Positions 1 to 10,599 of a stretch of DNA of 64,000 nt are shown here, piece by piece. The translations under genes were made by a program, and so were the position numbers. Where the stretch lies: contig NZ_AP027736.1 of assembly GCF_030296675.1 (NCBI RefSeq), positions 2,418,001-2,482,000 of the forward strand. The letters run 5' to 3'. The notes under the pieces are model-generated. The model searched no databases and was not told where the DNA came from. It saw nothing but the letters and a program-made list of their open reading frames with translations. The stretch comes from Demequina sediminis (lineage in GTDB: Bacteria > Actinomycetota > Actinomycetes > Actinomycetales > Demequinaceae). Position 1 is the stretch's first letter, and each line of letters opens with the position of its first letter.

Positions 1-3466
<3,466 letters not shown>

Positions 3467-3476
3467 CCCGCCCCCA

Positions 3477-3735
3477 CGCGGCTCCGCCACACGGTTTCGC
3501 GGCTCCGCCACACGAGCTACCCGCCGGCACCTCCTACCCCCGCCGGCTCCGCCACACGCCGTCACTGCAATGGGACACCCATGGTCGGTATCGAGGGATT
3601 CCGGCGCGCTATGGGACCACCACCGTCGCGGGCGTGTGGCGGAGTCGCGGCAGGGTGAGCGTGTGGCGGAGCCGCAGCAGGGTGAGCGTGTGGCGGAGCC
3701 GCGGCAGGGTGAGCGTGTGGCGGAGCCGCGGGAGG
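3477..3735. repeat. 27-bp tandem repeats with inverted copies in a convergent intergenic gap
   Basis: Four tandem units of 27 bp start at 3632, 3659, 3686 and 3713, each opening GCGTGTGGCGGAG and most ending CAGGGTGA. Reverse-complement copies of the core (CGGCTCCGCCACACG) lie upstream at 3477-3493, 3498-3514 and 3541-3558. The two sets face each other across about 75 bp, so transcripts from either side could fold into long hairpins. The block fills the gap between the convergent pullulanase and ABC permease genes, fitting a terminator or REP-like element. The repeats can be read as a VWRSR-rich peptide, which I regard as spurious. Confidence 0.8.
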
Positions 3736-3754
3736 GCGCTGAGTCGGCGCAGCG

Positions 3755-4564
3755 TCAGTGCGGCAGGCCCGCGTCGACCAGTCCGCGCGACACGCGCAGC
3801 CGGTGCTGGACCCGCGCGAACACCAGCCGGTCCACGAGCATCGTGAAGGCGAGCACGATGAGGATGGTCGCCATCATCTCCGTGATGTCGCCGGTCTCGC
3901 GCGAACGCTGGATCACGTCGCCGATCCCGGTGCCCGACAGTGCGCCCGAGAAGATCTCGCCGGCCACCAGGCAGCGGAACGCGATCGACCAGCCCAGCTC
4001 GAGACCGGTCATGATGCCGGGCAGCGCGGCGGGGAGCGTGACGTGTCGCAACAGCGTCCCGCCATCGGCCCCGAAGGTGCGCCCCGCCCGCAGCAGCAGC
4101 GGCGGCACGTTCTTCACGGCGGTGCGGGTGCCGAGGATCACCGCGGGCATCGCGCCGATGCTCACGACGGCCGCGAGCGACCACGGGGAGGTGCCGAGCA
4201 CGATCGCGGCCACCGGGATCCACATCGACGTCGGCATGCCCTGCAGGGCCGCGAGGTACGGAGAGAGCCCGCGGTCGACCGCGGGCCGGGAGCCGATCAC
4301 GAGCCCTAGCGCGACGCCCACCACCGCGGCGACCGCGAAGCAGCCGCCCATGAACAGCGTGACGCGCGCGAAGATCGACGCGAAGCGCCCGTCGAGAGCC
4401 ATCTGCCACAGCTCGGCCCCCGTCGCGGCCGGACCCGGGAGCGCGTCGAGGGTGAGCGACAGGAGGGCCCACAGCCCCAACAACGCGAGCCCCACCACGA
4501 CGATGGGCCCGCCGCGACGCCACGCGGGCGTGCGTGCGACCGGGGACGCGTCAGATGACGACAT
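3755..4564 (-). CDS. ABC transporter permease, sulfonate/taurine/nitrate type
   Basis: Membrane permease of about 269 residues, similar to SsuC/TauC. It has an N-terminal membrane segment at about residues 20-37, several further helices, and an EAA-like loop in the region of LPAALPGIMTGLELGWS. The start is the ATG at 4564, inside the upstream ATPase gene (14-bp overlap), so the two are translationally coupled. Lying last in a cys operon, it probably imports an organic or inorganic sulfur source. No periplasmic binding protein gene is present beside it. Substrate is inferred from context. Confidence 0.85.
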   Translation of the reverse strand: MSSSDASPVARTPAWRRGGPIVVVGLALLGLWALLSLTLDALPGPAATGAELWQMALDGRFASIFARVTLFMGGCFAVAAVVGVALGLVIGSRPAVDRGLSPYLAALQGMPTSMWIPVAAIVLGTSPWSLAAVVSIGAMPAVILGTRTAVKNVPPLLLRAGRTFGADGGTLLRHVTLPAALPGIMTGLELGWSIAFRCLVAGEIFSGALSGTGIGDVIQRSRETGDITEMMATILIVLAFTMLVDRLVFARVQHRLRVSRGLVDAGLPH

Positions 4565-5353
4565 GGTCGTCCTCCCCACCGCGCGGCGCCGCGATGCCCA
4601 GCTGGTCCGCGGCGTCGAGCAGCCGGCGCACATCCTGGGCGAGCGCGACCACGCGCTCGGATTCCACGACGCGCGGACGGGCGAGGGACACGCGAACGTC
4701 GCCGATGATGCGCCCGGGCCCGGAGGACAGGACGATGACGCGGTCACCCAGGGCGACCGCCTCGCGCACGTTGTGGGTGACGAAGAGAATCGTCGTGCCG
4801 GTCTCGCGCCACAGCTCCTGGAGCTCGACGTGGAGGCGGTCGCGCGACGGGGCGTCGAGCGCGCTGAAGGGCTCGTCCATCAGCAGGACAGCGGGTCGCA
4901 TCGCGAAGGCGCGGGCGAGTGCCGCGCGTTGGCGCATGCCGCCCGACAGCTGGTGTGGGTGGAGCGATGCGGCATCGGTCAGGCCCACCTTGGCGAGCCA
5001 GCGCGCGACGGTCGACTCGCGCTCGGCGGCCGGAACGCCAGCCTGCTTGAGCCCGAACCCGACGTTGTCCGCGACGGACAGCCACGGGAACAGCGCGTGC
5101 TCCTGGAACACCATGACGCGATCGGGGCCGGGGCCCGTGACGGGGCTGCCGTCGACGGCCACGGATCCGCGCGCGGGTCGCGTGTGCCCCGCCACGAGGT
5201 CGAGCAGCGTCGACTTTCCGCAGCCCGAGGGCCCACGACGCACACGAGTTCGCCCGGTGCGAGGGACAGGTCGATGCCGTCGAGAGCGAGGCGTTCCCCG
5301 GACCGGCCGGGGAACGCCTGCGCCACATCGGCGATCGCGACAGGTGCGCCCAT
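4551..5353 (-). CDS. ABC transporter ATPase, sulfonate/taurine/nitrate type (one frameshift)
   Basis: SsuB/TauB-like ATPase. The N-terminus (MGAPVAIADVAQAF) starts at the ATG at 5353, which overlaps the cysN stop as TGATG. Walker A is GPSGCGKST, signature LSGGMRQR, Walker B VLLMDEP, and the H-loop lies in LFVTHN. The reading frame breaks around 5228-5235 within a GGGCCC tract; one added base joins GELVCVVGP to SGCGKSTLL and restores a full ATPase. Energises the permease encoded immediately downstream. Placement behind cysN ties it to sulfur import. Confidence 0.88.
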
Positions 5354-6750
5354 CAGATGCTCAGGTAGGCGTCCTCGCCCAGGCCGGGGGCCTGAGCGCG
5401 CGCGGTGCCTGCGGCGACCGTCGAGCCGTCCTGCGGATCGATGAGCACGAAGGCGCCGGTGCGGCGGTGACGCCCGTAGTCCTCGACCGCGAGCGGCTGG
5501 GCGAGCTGGAGCTCGACCACGCCGATGTCGTTGAGCAGCAACTCGTGCCCCGGCTTGATCGACGCATCGAGCGTGCCTCCCGGCAGCGCGATGTCGAGCA
5601 CGCCGTCGATCGCGACGACCATCGCCTGGACCAACGCGGAGCCGTGCTGCACGAGCACGCGATCGCGCACGCGCAGCGGGCGATCCGTGAGCCACGCGAC
5701 GTGAGCGTGGAACGTGCGGCGTGGCTGGAGCGCGTCCGACGCGGAGGACAGCAGGTCCCCTCGCGCAACGTCGACATCGTCCGCGAGGCGAATCGCGATC
5801 GACTGACCGGCGTGCGCCTCGTCGAGCGGGCCCGTCGCGGTGTCGATGCCAGCGACCGTGGTGCGCCGCCCGGAGGGCTGGACCACGACATCGTCCCCCA
5901 CCCGGATGGTGCCCTCGGCGACCTGGCCCGCGTAGCCGCGATACTCGCGGTACTCGGGCGACAGGGCGGCGTCCTGCGGTCGCAGCACGAGCTGCACGGG
6001 CAGGCGCCAGCCCACCTGGGCGGCCTCGGCGTCGGCCGCGGTCGGGTGAGCGATGCCGCGGCGGTGAGCCGCGGCGATGGCGTCGGCGCCCTCGTCGATC
6101 GACGGCACGGTCTCGAGGATCTCGAGCACCGTGGGCCCGTCGTACCACGGCGTGCGCTCCGAGCGCACGGCCACGTTGTCGCCCACGAGCGCGCTCACGG
6201 GGACCGTGATGACGTTGGTGAGCCCGAGGGCCTCGGCGTGAGACTGCACGTGCTGCGCGATCGACCGGTACGGACCGGCCGCATAGTCGAGCAGGTCGAT
6301 CTTGTTGACGGCCACGATCACGTGCGGCACGCGCAGCAGCGCGGCCACCGCGAGGTGGCGGCGCGTCTGCTCGACCACGCCGTAGCGTGCATCCACGAGC
6401 ACGATCAGCGCGTCGGCGGTCGATGCACCCGTGACGGTGTTGCGCGTGTACTGCACGTGTCCGGGGCAGTCCGCGAGGATGAACGTGCGGCGCGGTGTCG
6501 AGAAGTAGCGGTACGCGACGTCGATCGTGATGCCCTGCTCGCGCTCGGCGCGCAGGCCGTCCGTGAGCAGCGCGAGGTCGACGGTCTCGCCGCCGCGCTC
6601 GCGGCTCACGCGCGCGACCGCCTCGTACGCGTCCGCGAGGATCGACTTGGTGTCGTGCAGCAGGCGCCCCACGAGCGTGGACTTGCCGTCGTCGACGGAT
6701 CCGGCGGTCGCGAAGCGCAGGAGCGAGGGCGTGGTGGTCAGGGTGTCCAT
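5353..6750 (-). CDS. cysN: Sulfate adenylyltransferase large subunit
   Basis: GTPase subunit of ATP sulfurylase (465 aa), which makes adenylylsulfate (APS) from sulfate and ATP with CysD. The G1 P-loop GSVDDGKST is at residues 17-25, G3 DCPGH at 94-98 and G4 NKID at 149-152, followed by two EF-Tu-like beta-barrel domains. No CysC (APS kinase) domain is fused, fitting direct APS reduction by the neighbouring CysH. The start overlaps the cysD stop (TAATG), so the pair is coupled. Confidence 0.95.
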   Translation of the reverse strand: MDTLTTTPSLLRFATAGSVDDGKSTLVGRLLHDTKSILADAYEAVARVSRERGGETVDLALLTDGLRAEREQGITIDVAYRYFSTPRRTFILADCPGHVQYTRNTVTGASTADALIVLVDARYGVVEQTRRHLAVAALLRVPHVIVAVNKIDLLDYAAGPYRSIAQHVQSHAEALGLTNVITVPVSALVGDNVAVRSERTPWYDGPTVLEILETVPSIDEGADAIAAAHRRGIAHPTAADAEAAQVGWRLPVQLVLRPQDAALSPEYREYRGYAGQVAEGTIRVGDDVVVQPSGRRTTVAGIDTATGPLDEAHAGQSIAIRLADDVDVARGDLLSSASDALQPRRTFHAHVAWLTDRPLRVRDRVLVQHGSALVQAMVVAIDGVLDIALPGGTLDASIKPGHELLLNDIGVVELQLAQPLAVEDYGRHRRTGAFVLIDPQDGSTVAAGTARAQAPGLGEDAYLSI

Positions 6751-7679
6751 TAGAAATAGCCCTCCTTCTTGCGGTCCTCCATGGCGGCCTCAGAGAGGCG
6801 GTCGTCGGCGCGGGTCGCGCCGCGCTCGGTGATGCGGGTCGCGGCGACCTCGGCGATCACCTCGGCGAGCGTCGCGGCGGGCGACTCGACGGCCCCCGTG
6901 CAGGACGCGTCCCCCACGGTCCGATACCTCACCGTGCGGGTCTCCACGGCATCGTCCTCGCGCACCGTCACGGACGGGTGGGGCGTGAGCCACATCCCGT
7001 CGCGCTGGAACACGGGCCGCTCGTGCGCGTAGTACAGCGACGGCAGCTCGATCCCCTCGCGCTCGATGTAGCGCCACACGTCGAGCTCCGTCCAGTTGGA
7101 CAGCGGGAACACGCGCACGTGCTGTCCGGGCAGGTGCTTGGGGTTGTAGAGGTTCCACAGCTCGGGACGCTGATTGCGCGGGTCCCACTGGCCGAACTCG
7201 TCGCGCAGGGACACCACGCGCTCCTTGGCGCGCGCCTTTTCCTCGTCGCGTCGCGCGCCGCCGAACACGACGTCGTACTTGTGTCCCGCGATCGCGTCGA
7301 GCAGCGGCACGGTCTGCAGCGGGTTGCGCGTGCCGTCGGGGCGTTCGCGCAGGCGGCCGTCGTCGATGTAGTCCTGCACCTTCGCGACCTGCAGGCGCAG
7401 GCCGAGGCGCTCGACGGTGCGATCGCGAAACTCGATGACCTCGTCGAAGTTGTGGCCCGTGTCGACGTGGAGCAGCTCGAACGGCACGCGTCCTGGCCAG
7501 AACGCCTTGGTCGCGAGGTGGAGCACCACGACGGAGTCCTTGCCGCCGGAGAACAGCAGCACGGGCTTGCGCGCGGTGGCGACCGCCTCGCGGATGATGT
7601 GGATGCCCTCGGCCTCGAGGGCATCCAGGGTGGTGAGGCGCGCGGGGGCGCCGGTGGGCGCCGCGGGTGCGTCGGTCAT
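6750..7679 (-). CDS. cysD: Sulfate adenylyltransferase small subunit
   Basis: Catalytic adenylyl-transferring subunit of ATP sulfurylase (309 aa). It is an N-type ATP pyrophosphatase with the PP-loop SGGKDS at residues 44-49 and the characteristic C-terminal RKKEGYF. The ATG at 7679 is chosen because the frame upstream of it reads low-complexity, Arg-rich sequence overlapping cysH. It precedes cysN with a 1-bp overlap. Confidence 0.95.
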   Translation of the reverse strand: MTDAPAAPTGAPARLTTLDALEAEGIHIIREAVATARKPVLLFSGGKDSVVVLHLATKAFWPGRVPFELLHVDTGHNFDEVIEFRDRTVERLGLRLQVAKVQDYIDDGRLRERPDGTRNPLQTVPLLDAIAGHKYDVVFGGARRDEEKARAKERVVSLRDEFGQWDPRNQRPELWNLYNPKHLPGQHVRVFPLSNWTELDVWRYIEREGIELPSLYYAHERPVFQRDGMWLTPHPSVTVREDDAVETRTVRYRTVGDASCTGAVESPAATLAEVIAEVAATRITERGATRADDRLSEAAMEDRKKEGYF

Positions 7680-7710
7680 GGGGAACCTTGTCTTGTCGGG
7701 GACGGGTGGT

Positions 7711-8451
7711 CTACGAGGTGTGGATGCCGCACTCGGTCTTGCCTTGGCCGGCCCAACGCCCGGAGCGCGGGTCCTCGCCCGGCGCGACCTTGCGGGTGCA
7801 CGGCAGGCAGCCGATGCTCGGGTAGCCCTGAGCCACCAGCGGGTGGCGGGGGAGGTCGTTGGCCTCCTGATAGGCCTCGACGGCGGCGTCATCCCATAGC
7901 GCGAGCGGGTTGATCTTCACGAGTCCGTGCTTGGCGTCCCAGCTGACCACCGGCATCTCGGAGCGGGTGATCGCGTCGACGCGGCGCGCGCCCGTGACCC
8001 AGGCGGCGTAGCCCTCGAGGGCGCGGCGCAGCGGCTCCACCTTGCGCAGCGCGCAGCACAGATTGGGGTCGCGAGCGAAGAGATCCTTGCCGTGGGTCGC
8101 ATCCTGCTCCTCGACGGTCTGCTCGGGCAGGACGTTGACCACGGTGATGTCGAAGGCCCGCGCGGCCTCGTCCCGCGTGACGATCGTCTCGGGGAAGTGG
8201 TAGCCGGTCTCGAGGAAGAGCACGTCCACACCCGGCAGGCGGGTCCCGAACAGGTGGGGGAGGATCGTGTCCTGCATGGACGATGCCACGGCCAAGCGGG
8301 CGCCGAAGGTCGCCACCGCCCAGTCCGCGATGTGCGCGGCCGAGGCAGTCTCGAGGCGCGCGTTGACCTCGGCGCACGTCTGCGCGTTCCACTCGGTGGG
8401 GTTGAGGAGGGTGAGCGACGCGGAGCCCAACCCGGGGAGGCCGGTGCTCAC
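7711..8451 (-). CDS. cysH: Phosphoadenylyl/adenylylsulfate reductase
   Basis: Reduces activated sulfate to sulfite using thioredoxin (246 aa). The ECGIH motif near the C-terminus carries the catalytic cysteine (C241). A CC pair at 132-133 and CxxC at 215-218 are the four ligands of the 4Fe-4S cluster found in the APS-reductase type, so the substrate is more likely APS than PAPS. This agrees with the lack of an APS kinase in the operon. The GTG start at 8451 overlaps the sulfite reductase stop (GTGA). Confidence 0.93.
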   Translation of the reverse strand: MSTGLPGLGSASLTLLNPTEWNAQTCAEVNARLETASAAHIADWAVATFGARLAVASSMQDTILPHLFGTRLPGVDVLFLETGYHFPETIVTRDEAARAFDITVVNVLPEQTVEEQDATHGKDLFARDPNLCCALRKVEPLRRALEGYAAWVTGARRVDAITRSEMPVVSWDAKHGLVKINPLALWDDAAVEAYQEANDLPRHPLVAQGYPSIGCLPCTRKVAPGEDPRSGRWAGQGKTECGIHTS

Positions 8452-10237
8452 TTGATCAGCTCCTCGTCCACCCGGAAGGCCCAGTCGGCGAACTGCTCGC
8501 CGTCCGTGCGGGTCTCGAGGTAGTTGCGGGTGACGCGCTCGACGTAGTCGGGCATGCCATCGGCCTTCACCTTGTGCGCGCGGATCTTGCGACCGAAGTC
8601 GTTGTCCTCGCCGCGGCCCAGGCGGCCACCCAGGTGCACCTGGAAGCCGGGGACCTGCTCGCCGGTCTCGTCGTCCAGCACGAGCTGGCCCTTGAAGCCG
8701 ATGTCGGCGACCTGGATGCGCGCGCACGAGTTCGGGCAGCCGTTGACGTGCACCGTGATGGGGGCGTCGAGCGTGGGGAAGGCCTGATCGAGGCGGGTCA
8801 CCACCTCGCGAGCGGTGGCCTTGGTCTCGACGATCGCGAGCTTGCAGTACTCGATGCCCGTGCAGGCCATGACGTTGCGGGCGAACTCGCCCGGCTGCGC
8901 CTCGAGCTCGAGAGCGCGCAGTCCATTGACGACGTCGTTGACCTTGTCCTCCGGCACATCCAGGATGAGCACCTTCTGGAGGGGGTGAGGCGGATCCGGT
9001 CGGAGCCGGCGGCCTCGGCGATGTCGGCGATCGCGGCGAGCTTGGCGCCCGAGATGCGGCCCGCGATGGGCGCGGCGCCGACGTAGTAGCGCCCGTCCTT
9101 CTGCTCATGGATGCCCACGTGGTCGCCGCGGTCGCCCGGGCGGCCCACCTCGGGGCCCGGGCCGTCGGGGAGCTTCCAGCCCAGGTAGTCGTTCTCGAGC
9201 ACCTCGCGGAACTTCTCCGCGCCCCACGCCTTGACCAGGAACTTGAGGCGGGCGCGCGTGCGCAGGCGGCGGTAGCCATGGTCGCGGAAGATGCCGATGA
9301 CACCGGCCCAGACGTCCGCGACCTTGTCGGGCTCGACGAAGGCGCCCAGGCGCACGCCCAACTGAGGGTTGATGCTGAGTCCTCCGCCCACCCACAGGTC
9401 GTAGCCCACGCCGAGCTCGGGGTGCTCGACGGCGACGAACGCGACGTCCTGAACCTCGTGGACGATGTCGGGGATGCGCGTGCCGGTGATCGCCGACTTG
9501 AACTTGCGCGGCAGGTTCGAGAACTCGGGGTTGCCGATTCCGCGGTCGATGATCGCGCGGATCTGCGGGGTCGGGTCGATCAGCTCGTCCTTCGCGACGC
9601 CCGCGACGGGGGAGCCCAGGATCACGCGGGGGACGTCGCCGCACGCCTCCGTGGTGAACAGTCCCACCGCCTCGATGCGGCGGAAGATCTCGGGCACGTC
9701 CTCGACGCGGATCCAGTGGAGCTGGATGTTCTGGCGGTCCGAGACGTCGGCGGTGTCGCGGCCAAATTCCTGAGAGATCGCCGCGATCTCGCGCGCCTGG
9801 GCGACGGACAGCTGGCCGCCGTCGGAGCGGACGCGCAGCATGAAGTACTCGTCATCGAGCTGGTGCGGCTCGAGGATCGCGGTGCGGCCGCCGTCGATCC
9901 CGGGCCGGCGCTGCGTGTACAGGCCCCACCAGCGGAAGCGGCCGCGCAGGTCCGAGGGCGGGATCGACCAGAAGCCCCACTTCGAGTACATCGTCTCGAT
10001 GCGGTGACGGACCTCAAGCGGGTCACCCGTCGACTTGAACTCCTCGTTGGGGTTCAGCGGGGTGCGGTCGCCGGAGGCCCACTGGCCGTCCTTGGCCGCG
10101 GTGTCCTTGCGTGCGGCGGCCTCGCGGGTGCGGATGAGGCGCGCCTCCTCGCGGTGACGACGACGCTCGTCGGCATCGGTCAGCGCCTGGGGTGCGCGGT
10201 GGGGGGTGGTGTCGGCGGCGTCGGTGGTGGGGCTCAC
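8448..10237 (-). CDS. sir: Ferredoxin-dependent sulfite (nitrite) reductase, siroheme/4Fe-4S (one frameshift)
   Basis: Six-electron reduction of sulfite to sulfide, about 596 residues. Two ferredoxin-like/NIR_SIR repeats are present. The C-terminal half carries the siroheme/4Fe-4S cysteines in ACTGIEYCKLA and NGCPNSCA. The GTG start at 10237 is preceded by GGAGGAG. The frame shifts in a C5 run near 8983-8988: adding one C joins DRIRLTP to LQKVLILDVPED. First gene of the sulfur operon, downstream of a Cys-rich leader peptide. NirA and SirA are very similar; sulfite reduction is preferred because of the cysH-cysD-cysN neighbours. Confidence 0.92.
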
Positions 10238-10290
10238 CGCTCCTCCAGTCGTGTCGGTGGGAGCTGCGGCCGGGCGGGCGCGTCTGAGGT

Positions 10291-10310
10291 GCGCTCGTCA
10301 GGCCGAGCGC
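10291..10310 (-). promoter_or_regulatory. Candidate attenuator hairpin upstream of sir
   Basis: A perfect 7-bp stem (GCGCTCG/CGAGCGC, 6-nt loop) lies between the stop of the Cys-rich leader ORF (10342) and the sir start (10237). Its position, about 30 nt after the leader and about 50 nt before the GGAGGAG ribosome site, is right for translation-coupled attenuation. It lacks a clear U-run, so control of ribosome access or Rho access is as likely as intrinsic termination. Confidence 0.5.
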
Positions 10311-10341
10311 CCAGGAAGTTGGGACAGGTTCCGTGGGCGAC

Positions 10342-10407
10342 TCAGGCCGACAGACACATGGCACAGCAAACGCAGCACATCGGTGCGCGGTTTGCGTGGA
10401 AGGCCAT
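10342..10407 (-). CDS. Cysteine-rich leader peptide (21 aa) of the sulfur assimilation operon
   Basis: Reads MAFHANRAPMCCVCCAMCLSA and stops at TGA: five cysteines within eight residues. It lies in the leader of the sir-cysHDN operon. An extended -10-like sequence TGTCATCAT ends 7 nt before its ATG (complement of 10415-10420), so the message may be leaderless, beginning at the ATG itself. Cys-rich leaderless uORFs upstream of sulfur genes are known cysteine sensors in mycobacteria: scarce Cys-tRNA stalls the ribosome and opens the downstream gene. That role is inferred here. Confidence 0.7.
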   Translation of the reverse strand: MAFHANRAPMCCVCCAMCLSA

Positions 10408-10599
10408 GGGCGAGATGATGACACATCACCGGGGGACTTGGGAAGGGCGCGGGGGACGATGCCCGGGTTAGCAGGCACGGCCACTACCAGGCCCGATGCC
10501 CCCGGGGGTGTCGAGAGGCCCGCGGGGCCGGGACCTCCGGCCCCGCCGCCGCGGGTCGGACGCGCCTAGCGTGAGGGGGAGTCCGTCGAGGGGAGAACC

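Follow-up and report, generated by a model that had tools for sequence, protein, structure and literature searches.

The stretch of DNA analysed here, which we call the window, comprises 64,000 nt of Demequina sediminis (assembly GCF_030296675.1, contig NZ_AP027736.1, positions 2,418,001-2,482,000; the genome is a single 2.7-Mb contig) and contains on its minus strand a row of sulfur genes headed by sir, a ferredoxin-type sulfite reductase gene (8448..10237 in window coordinates, which are used throughout; Pfam NIR_SIR). Behind sir follow cysH, cysD, cysN, an ABC ATPase gene and an ABC permease gene (3755..8451, minus strand, outer limits approximate), for which Pfam returns PAPS_reduct twice (cysH and cysD), GTP_EFTU (cysN), ABC_tran and BPD_transp_1, in agreement with the genes named in an earlier note on this DNA; their order and common strand suggest that all of them, from sir onwards, are co-transcribed. 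Read along the minus strand, the leader of sir presents in succession a -10-like box, a cysteine-rich upstream open reading frame (uORF), a set of hairpins, a Shine-Dalgarno (SD) sequence (GGAGGAGC, 10239..10246, minus strand, recognized in the sequence and by comparison of leaders) and the GTG start codon of sir at 10237. Comparison of this leader with those of relatives indicates that it is real and probably cysteine-responsive, with sir as the predicted regulated gene.

The uORF (MAFHANRAPMCCVCCAMCLSA, 10342..10407, minus strand) has 21 codons and carries near its end a block in which, as the earlier note stated and our rereading of the sequence bears out, five of eight residues are cysteine (CCVCCAMC, codons -11 to -4 counted from the stop). 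An extended -10-like box (TGT CATCAT, TGTCATCAT, 10415..10423, minus strand) was likewise found where it had been placed, 7 nt before the ATG, an arrangement that would suit a leaderless-type start. The spacing is 6-7 nt across the genus: a script recovered a [CTG]AnnnT box at this distance in 42 of 43 leaders, and the remaining leader, L125, has AACACT at 7 nt by eye. A degenerate DNA pattern of the uORF end, allowing up to two mismatches, matches once in the window and never in 100 shuffles; when no mismatch is allowed, 41 of the 47 family genomes have a single match apiece, and a reversed control pattern gives none. Four pattern-negative genomes (G040, G044, G045 and G046) have no match to the sir query either, and two more, G032 and G037, possess sir behind a diverged leader; these two and the 41 pattern-positive genomes supply the 43 genus leaders counted here. 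A search of the peptide against 18950 NCBIfam models returned no family at E values up to 10.

Aligned across Demequina, the uORF and the hairpin are kept in 43 of 43 sir leaders, and an in-frame N-terminal motif of sir stands behind every one of them. The uORF holds 6 cysteines in 3 leaders, 5 in 17, 4 in 12, 3 in 9, 2 in L099 and 1 in L125, so that 41 of the 43 have at least three; by position from the stop, cysteine occupies codon -4 in 43 leaders, -7 in 42, -8 in 34 and -11 in 28. Its length ranges from 21 to 24 codons, and the ATG stays in frame with the Cys block despite these changes. The N-terminal half is variable and the C-[AV]-M-C end conserved. Clustered cysteines with a conserved end would also suit a trans-acting peptide, such as a micropeptide binding metals or thiols, a proposal that we regard as very improbable in view of the variable N-terminal half, a Cys number that runs from 1 to 6, and the placement of the uORF before sulfur genes with hairpins adjacent to its stop.

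Downstream of the leader peptide, three hairpins (A:B, B:C and C:D, all on the minus strand) share segments and include mutually exclusive pairings. The perfect hairpin reported earlier between the uORF and the GTG of sir is indeed present as B:C (GCGCTCG-GCCTGA-CGAGCGC, 7 bp, 10310-10291), and six of its pairs are kept in 100% of alignment cells; the account of a single hairpin nevertheless missed the stop-adjacent A:B, and comparison gives a set of competing helices. A:B (10309..10338) pairs GCCCA-c-GGAA (10338-10329) with TTCC-TGGGC (10317-10309) and starts 3 nt after the uORF stop in the window; across the genus its 5' arm begins 2 nt after the stop in 21 leaders, 3 nt in 19 and 0 nt in three. 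Segment B (GGGCGCTCGG, 10303..10312), common to A:B and B:C, has ten positions that are invariant in the 43 leaders. C:D (10275..10297) joins CGAGCGC (10297-10291) to GCGCCCG (10281-10275) with one A-C mismatch in the window, and a putative anti-SD, GCTCCC (10259..10264), faces the SD of sir.

A:B and C:D covary. When the segment is cut at each leader's own GCCC and GGGC anchors, so that the outer pairs are given, A:B folds in 43 of 43 leaders, and its inner pairs vary by group without loss of pairing (GGAA/TTCC in the window; elsewhere GGAT/ATCC, TAC/GTA or GCAG/CTGC). Exchanging arms between species raises the energy of A:B from -5.22 kcal (native) to -3.93 kcal, with none of 5000 permutations as low, and that of C:D from -11.31 to -10.49 kcal (4 of 5000), whereas the exchange gives no signal for six further pairs of arms taken from these leaders (950-4294 of 5000). 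C:D variants include CGAGCG with CGCTCG (for example L107, L111 and L113) and CGGGCG with CGCCCG (L085, L102, L108, L110 and L122). Counting pairs in a MAFFT alignment, which misses differing helix registers, scores the covariation of A:B at 0.119, compared with 0.087 in shuffles (2 of 500), and finds 80.4% of its cells paired, compared with 76.8% (0 of 500). The same arm exchange applied to the anti-SD region with the SD, to B/E and to C/E detected no covariation; B and the SD core hardly vary. Rfam covariance models found nothing at threshold in the leader, the one sub-threshold match, mir-1268 at 20.1 of 83 bits, being a chance one, and a known riboswitch, T-box or other Rfam family was rejected on that ground.

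An intrinsic terminator was also rejected, as TTTT occurs within 30 nt after B:C in none of the 43 leaders; a B:C hairpin without TTTT fits translation control, or Rho, better. The linker contains CTCC, which can pair with the SD, in 36 of 43 leaders, as opposed to a mean of 22.9 and a maximum of 30 in 100 shuffled sets. When folding is forced, opening the SD costs 4.54 kcal if A:B is formed while a ribosome occupies the last Cys codon, versus 6.81 kcal if B:C is formed and the ribosome has reached the stop; in 37 of 43 leaders the A:B state leaves the SD more open than the B:C state does. Shuffling the linker abolishes this difference (2.27 kcal native versus a mean of 0.27 and a largest value of 0.84; 0 of 20 sets as large). 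The analysis thus obtains directly the conserved parts, the covariation of A:B and C:D, and an energy coupling between helix state and SD when the helices are forced. The two leaders lowest in cysteine, L099 and L125, also lack the CTCC of the anti-SD, possibly as instances of natural decay of the switch.

Taken together, these features make it likely that the sir-cysHDN operon is under the control of a cysteine sensor read by ribosomes. Its mRNA would start at or beside the uORF ATG, as the promoter spacing suggests. With cysteine plentiful, ribosomes would reach the uORF stop and cover A, B would pair with C, and the anti-SD would be free to hold the SD of sir, turning expression off. With Cys-tRNA scarce, ribosomes would stall at the Cys codons, and their leading edge, taken to lie about 12 nt past the A site, would extend at most to the stop codon; A would then pair with B, C would be freed for D, and the more open SD would turn expression on. 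We infer that ribosomes stall, how strongly and in which direction the genes respond, and that control acts on translation and not through Rho-dependent transcription. The Cys-sensing attenuator proposed in the earlier note remains the best reading, supported by a uORF, promoter spacing and hairpin found in all 43 leaders, by the recurrence of at least three cysteines and by a second uORF before cysK, although the sensor would work without an intrinsic terminator at B:C.

This second leader came to light in a search with PF00291, which has six loci in the D. sediminis genome (L251-L256, with genes listed for L252 and L253, where further short ORFs rich in Cys also appear). A polycysteine uORF, MSIERRATVAPASAVLACSPAAMCCGVCCCCL (G000:C1 ~1337437-1337535, equivalent to 1225-1323 of L252), ends 150 nt before cysK, and a cysE-like gene follows; both gene names are ones we presume from the translations. 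Among 44 genus genomes cysK was found in 43 and its leader read in 42 (G011, with a split match, was left out), and all 42 contain a Cys-rich uORF, including that of G040, which has no sir match. In 40 parsed leaders the uORF stop is TAG, and its third base pairs with the downstream arm in 40 of 40. The stem covaries, since exchanging arms costs it energy (-18.3 kcal before versus -17.14 kcal after exchange, 0 of 5000), and the inner arms alone behave likewise (-5.69 versus -4.63 kcal, 0 of 5000). A purine-rich stretch precedes the uORF in D. sediminis, which may therefore be leadered. Polycysteine codon patterns applied to the same genome gave counts at or below those of the reversed control. 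The parallel between the leaders before sir and cysK makes a small ribosome-read cysteine regulon in Demequina likely.

Several results weigh against a ribosome-read sensor. The pN/pS ratio (nonsynonymous to synonymous change) is 0.73-0.77 in the uORF and 0.61-0.96 in other frames, so that this test, in which the uORF frame does no better than the others, gives no sign of purifying selection on the peptide; the mean number of TGY codons is 4.3 in frame, 3.3 in the next frame and 1.2 in the third; and all 43 leaders use TGT, never TGC, as their last Cys codon, a sign of RNA-level constraint. For these three reasons we read the leader region as held at the RNA level, with the Cys codons held along with it. 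Such strong conservation, the invariant segment B and the unremarkable pN/pS would be natural for a structured RNA that binds a ligand or protein and in which the ORF is incidental. We consider that explanation improbable, since the ATG is nearly fixed relative to the -10-like box and keeps its frame through length changes, the Cys codons persist in nearly all leaders, a different polycysteine uORF precedes cysK, and the leader matches no Rfam family at threshold.

The remaining adverse results concern the helices that the proposed cysteine sensor would use. For A:B, neither the pairs (207 of 500) nor the cells (45 of 500) with double changes clearly exceed shuffles, and the number of pair types (154 of 500) does not either; B:C is paired in every cell and changes solely to G-U, so that covariation is silent on it; and the permutation and pair-counting tests ignore phylogeny. 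CTCC is missing from seven of the 43 leaders, five of them with 3-5 Cys, and adding 30 nt of sir to the forced folds narrows the contrast to 4.85 versus 5.79 kcal, in the expected direction in 30 of 43 leaders. The switch does not emerge from unforced folding at equilibrium in which simple masks stand in for ribosomes. B pairs upstream when the leader is free or carries a stalled ribosome (0.69, 0.74 and 0.55), and with a ribosome on the stop it pairs mostly with downstream sequence (0.61) and with C at only 0.17, while the SD is then slightly more open (0.25 unpaired versus 0.14-0.17; opening 3.89 kcal). For the switch to operate, B:C would therefore have to form first, during transcription. 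This absence of an SD switch in unforced folds is one reason to weigh a transcriptional output of the same cysteine sensor, in which a ribosome over A would permit B:C, and RNA polymerase would then be halted either by Rho or by termination that needs no U-tract; the A:B/B:C geometry is that of a classical attenuator, and Rho was proposed for mycobacterial cys leaders, described in the source as likewise lacking terminators (Seliverstov et al., PMC1262725). The missing TTTT counts against an intrinsic terminator and leaves Rho untouched, whereas the over-represented anti-SD and the dependence of SD opening energy on the forced helix state speak for translation, and we hold a transcriptional output to be possible and rather unlikely.

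Beyond the genus, Cellulomonas leaders repeat the layout: a CCCPRSN-like peptide end, the stop, GCCC, GGGCGCG (GGGTGCG in L048) and a matching arm. Among 59 named non-Demequina loci, one of which (L024) has almost no upstream sequence, a script listed a short ORF with at least three Cys in 23. We judged 12 of these to be leader-like, namely 8 of 8 Cellulomonas loci together with L027, L052, L066 and L074, and set 11 aside by eye on account of scattered Cys or of overlapping or distant ORFs (L031, L035, L036, L037, L050, L059, L062, L068, L071, L072 and L078). Of 99 genomes sampled evenly across the order, 56 match sir with an E value no higher than 0.001, although some of these matches are weak. 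Reading 44 of the 45 strong non-Demequina matches (G074, at a contig start, was left out) located polycysteine-ended uORFs with at least three Cys in family f9 only, at 6 of 6 loci; five of these came from the script and L208 from inspection after the script had chosen a wrong sir start, an error that may hide others. Short ORFs of another type, HVDL with Cys near the end, stand before sir in other families of the order (L207, L218, L220, L234, L235 and L248), and two of the Streptomyces loci, L059 and L062, have an RHVDL...C-type short ORF with a terminal Cys before sir. These HVDL-type ORFs are possibly another form of cysteine leader.

Our broadest proposal, to which we lean with modest confidence, is that Demequina and its Cellulomonas relatives share a ribosome-read cysteine regulon, covering at least sir-cysHDN and cysK in Demequina, with a leader RNA architecture for which no family turned up in Rfam: a covarying hairpin that begins within or directly behind the uORF stop codon and, ahead of sir, excludes another hairpin and in this way governs access to the SD. 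The comparison yields machinery that can be read from its parts: one stem lies at the point where a ribosome finishing the uORF would melt it, and its partner links this stem to the SD of sir. This gives a testable model with two independent leaders in one genome and about 40 natural variants, L099 and L125 among them.

The window has further features that bear on the assembly and on its gene content. The sir frame is broken at 8981-8985 (minus strand), where a C run has one base fewer than in L003, L004 and L005, so that the gene is out of frame near 8985 in the assembly; the split reflects either an assembly error or a broken gene. By eye, the ABC ATPase after cysN also seems to lie in two frames around ~5240-5330 (minus strand), its N-terminal part in ORF 4979-6148 and the rest in ORF 4551-5243, which again suggests indel errors in the assembly. 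At 1247-3466 on the plus strand, a large ORF resembles by eye a pullulanase-type glycosidase with repeated C-terminal segments that resemble SLH repeats.

Cysteine leaders of this general kind have precedents in Actinobacteria. Leader peptides with Cys runs were predicted in 2005 in Mycobacterium, Propionibacterium acnes and Bifidobacterium longum, in a survey that, in the parts available, describes no conserved terminator hairpins and calls the mode of regulation unknown (Seliverstov et al., PMC1262725). Conserved mycobacterial Cys uORFs, including that of nirA/Msmeg_4527, were described later (Shell et al., 2015, PMC4633059), and Canestrari et al. (2020) are cited as showing cysteine-responsive attenuation of translation in M. 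smegmatis (via PMC9031893, PMC13236596). The earlier note's view that the Demequina leader belongs to a different lineage holds for Demequina and Cellulomonas, with the qualification that Cys leaders outside mycobacteria were already predicted in 2005 (PMC1262725). In the passages of open-licence literature available we found no report of such leaders for Demequina or Cellulomonas, the latter not having been searched by name, and the table of Streptomyces lividans attenuators, as far as it was available, assigns none to cysteine (PMC8079986).

The likenesses and differences define what the Demequina leaders add. The Streptomyces-type RHVDL...C peptide, presumably the one labelled 'putative leader peptide', likewise precedes sir and ends in Cys, but it has one to three Cys (mostly one or two) and another peptide motif. 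Like the classical trp-type attenuator, the Demequina leader combines a leader peptide with mutually exclusive hairpins, the first of which would be covered by a ribosome at the stop; unlike it, the leader has no U-tract terminator and the SD is the likely target. With the mycobacterial polycysteine attenuators it shares Cys codons grouped towards the end of a short ORF that precedes cysteine or sulfur genes, and the spacing of the -10-like box may mean that its mRNA is leaderless like theirs. As for a structure that keeps the downstream ribosome-binding site hidden until a ribosome stalls, the forced folds agree with one and the unforced folds do not. The Demequina leader differs in lineage, in peptide and in a conserved, covarying set of stop-adjacent hairpins, a comparison that for the 2020 paper draws on the passages citing it. 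The 2005 candidates likewise have runs of Cys close to the end of a short ORF, stand ahead of cys operons or cbs and lack a terminator (PMC1262725), whereas the Demequina leaders have conserved competing helices. Going by the parts of these sources available, the kind goes back to a prediction of 2005 and was demonstrated in mycobacteria in 2020, and what is new is the lineage, the conserved competing hairpins and the presence of two leaders per genome. If our proposal is correct, the Demequina and Cellulomonas architecture supplies the attenuator elements that were found missing from actinobacterial cys leaders in 2005.
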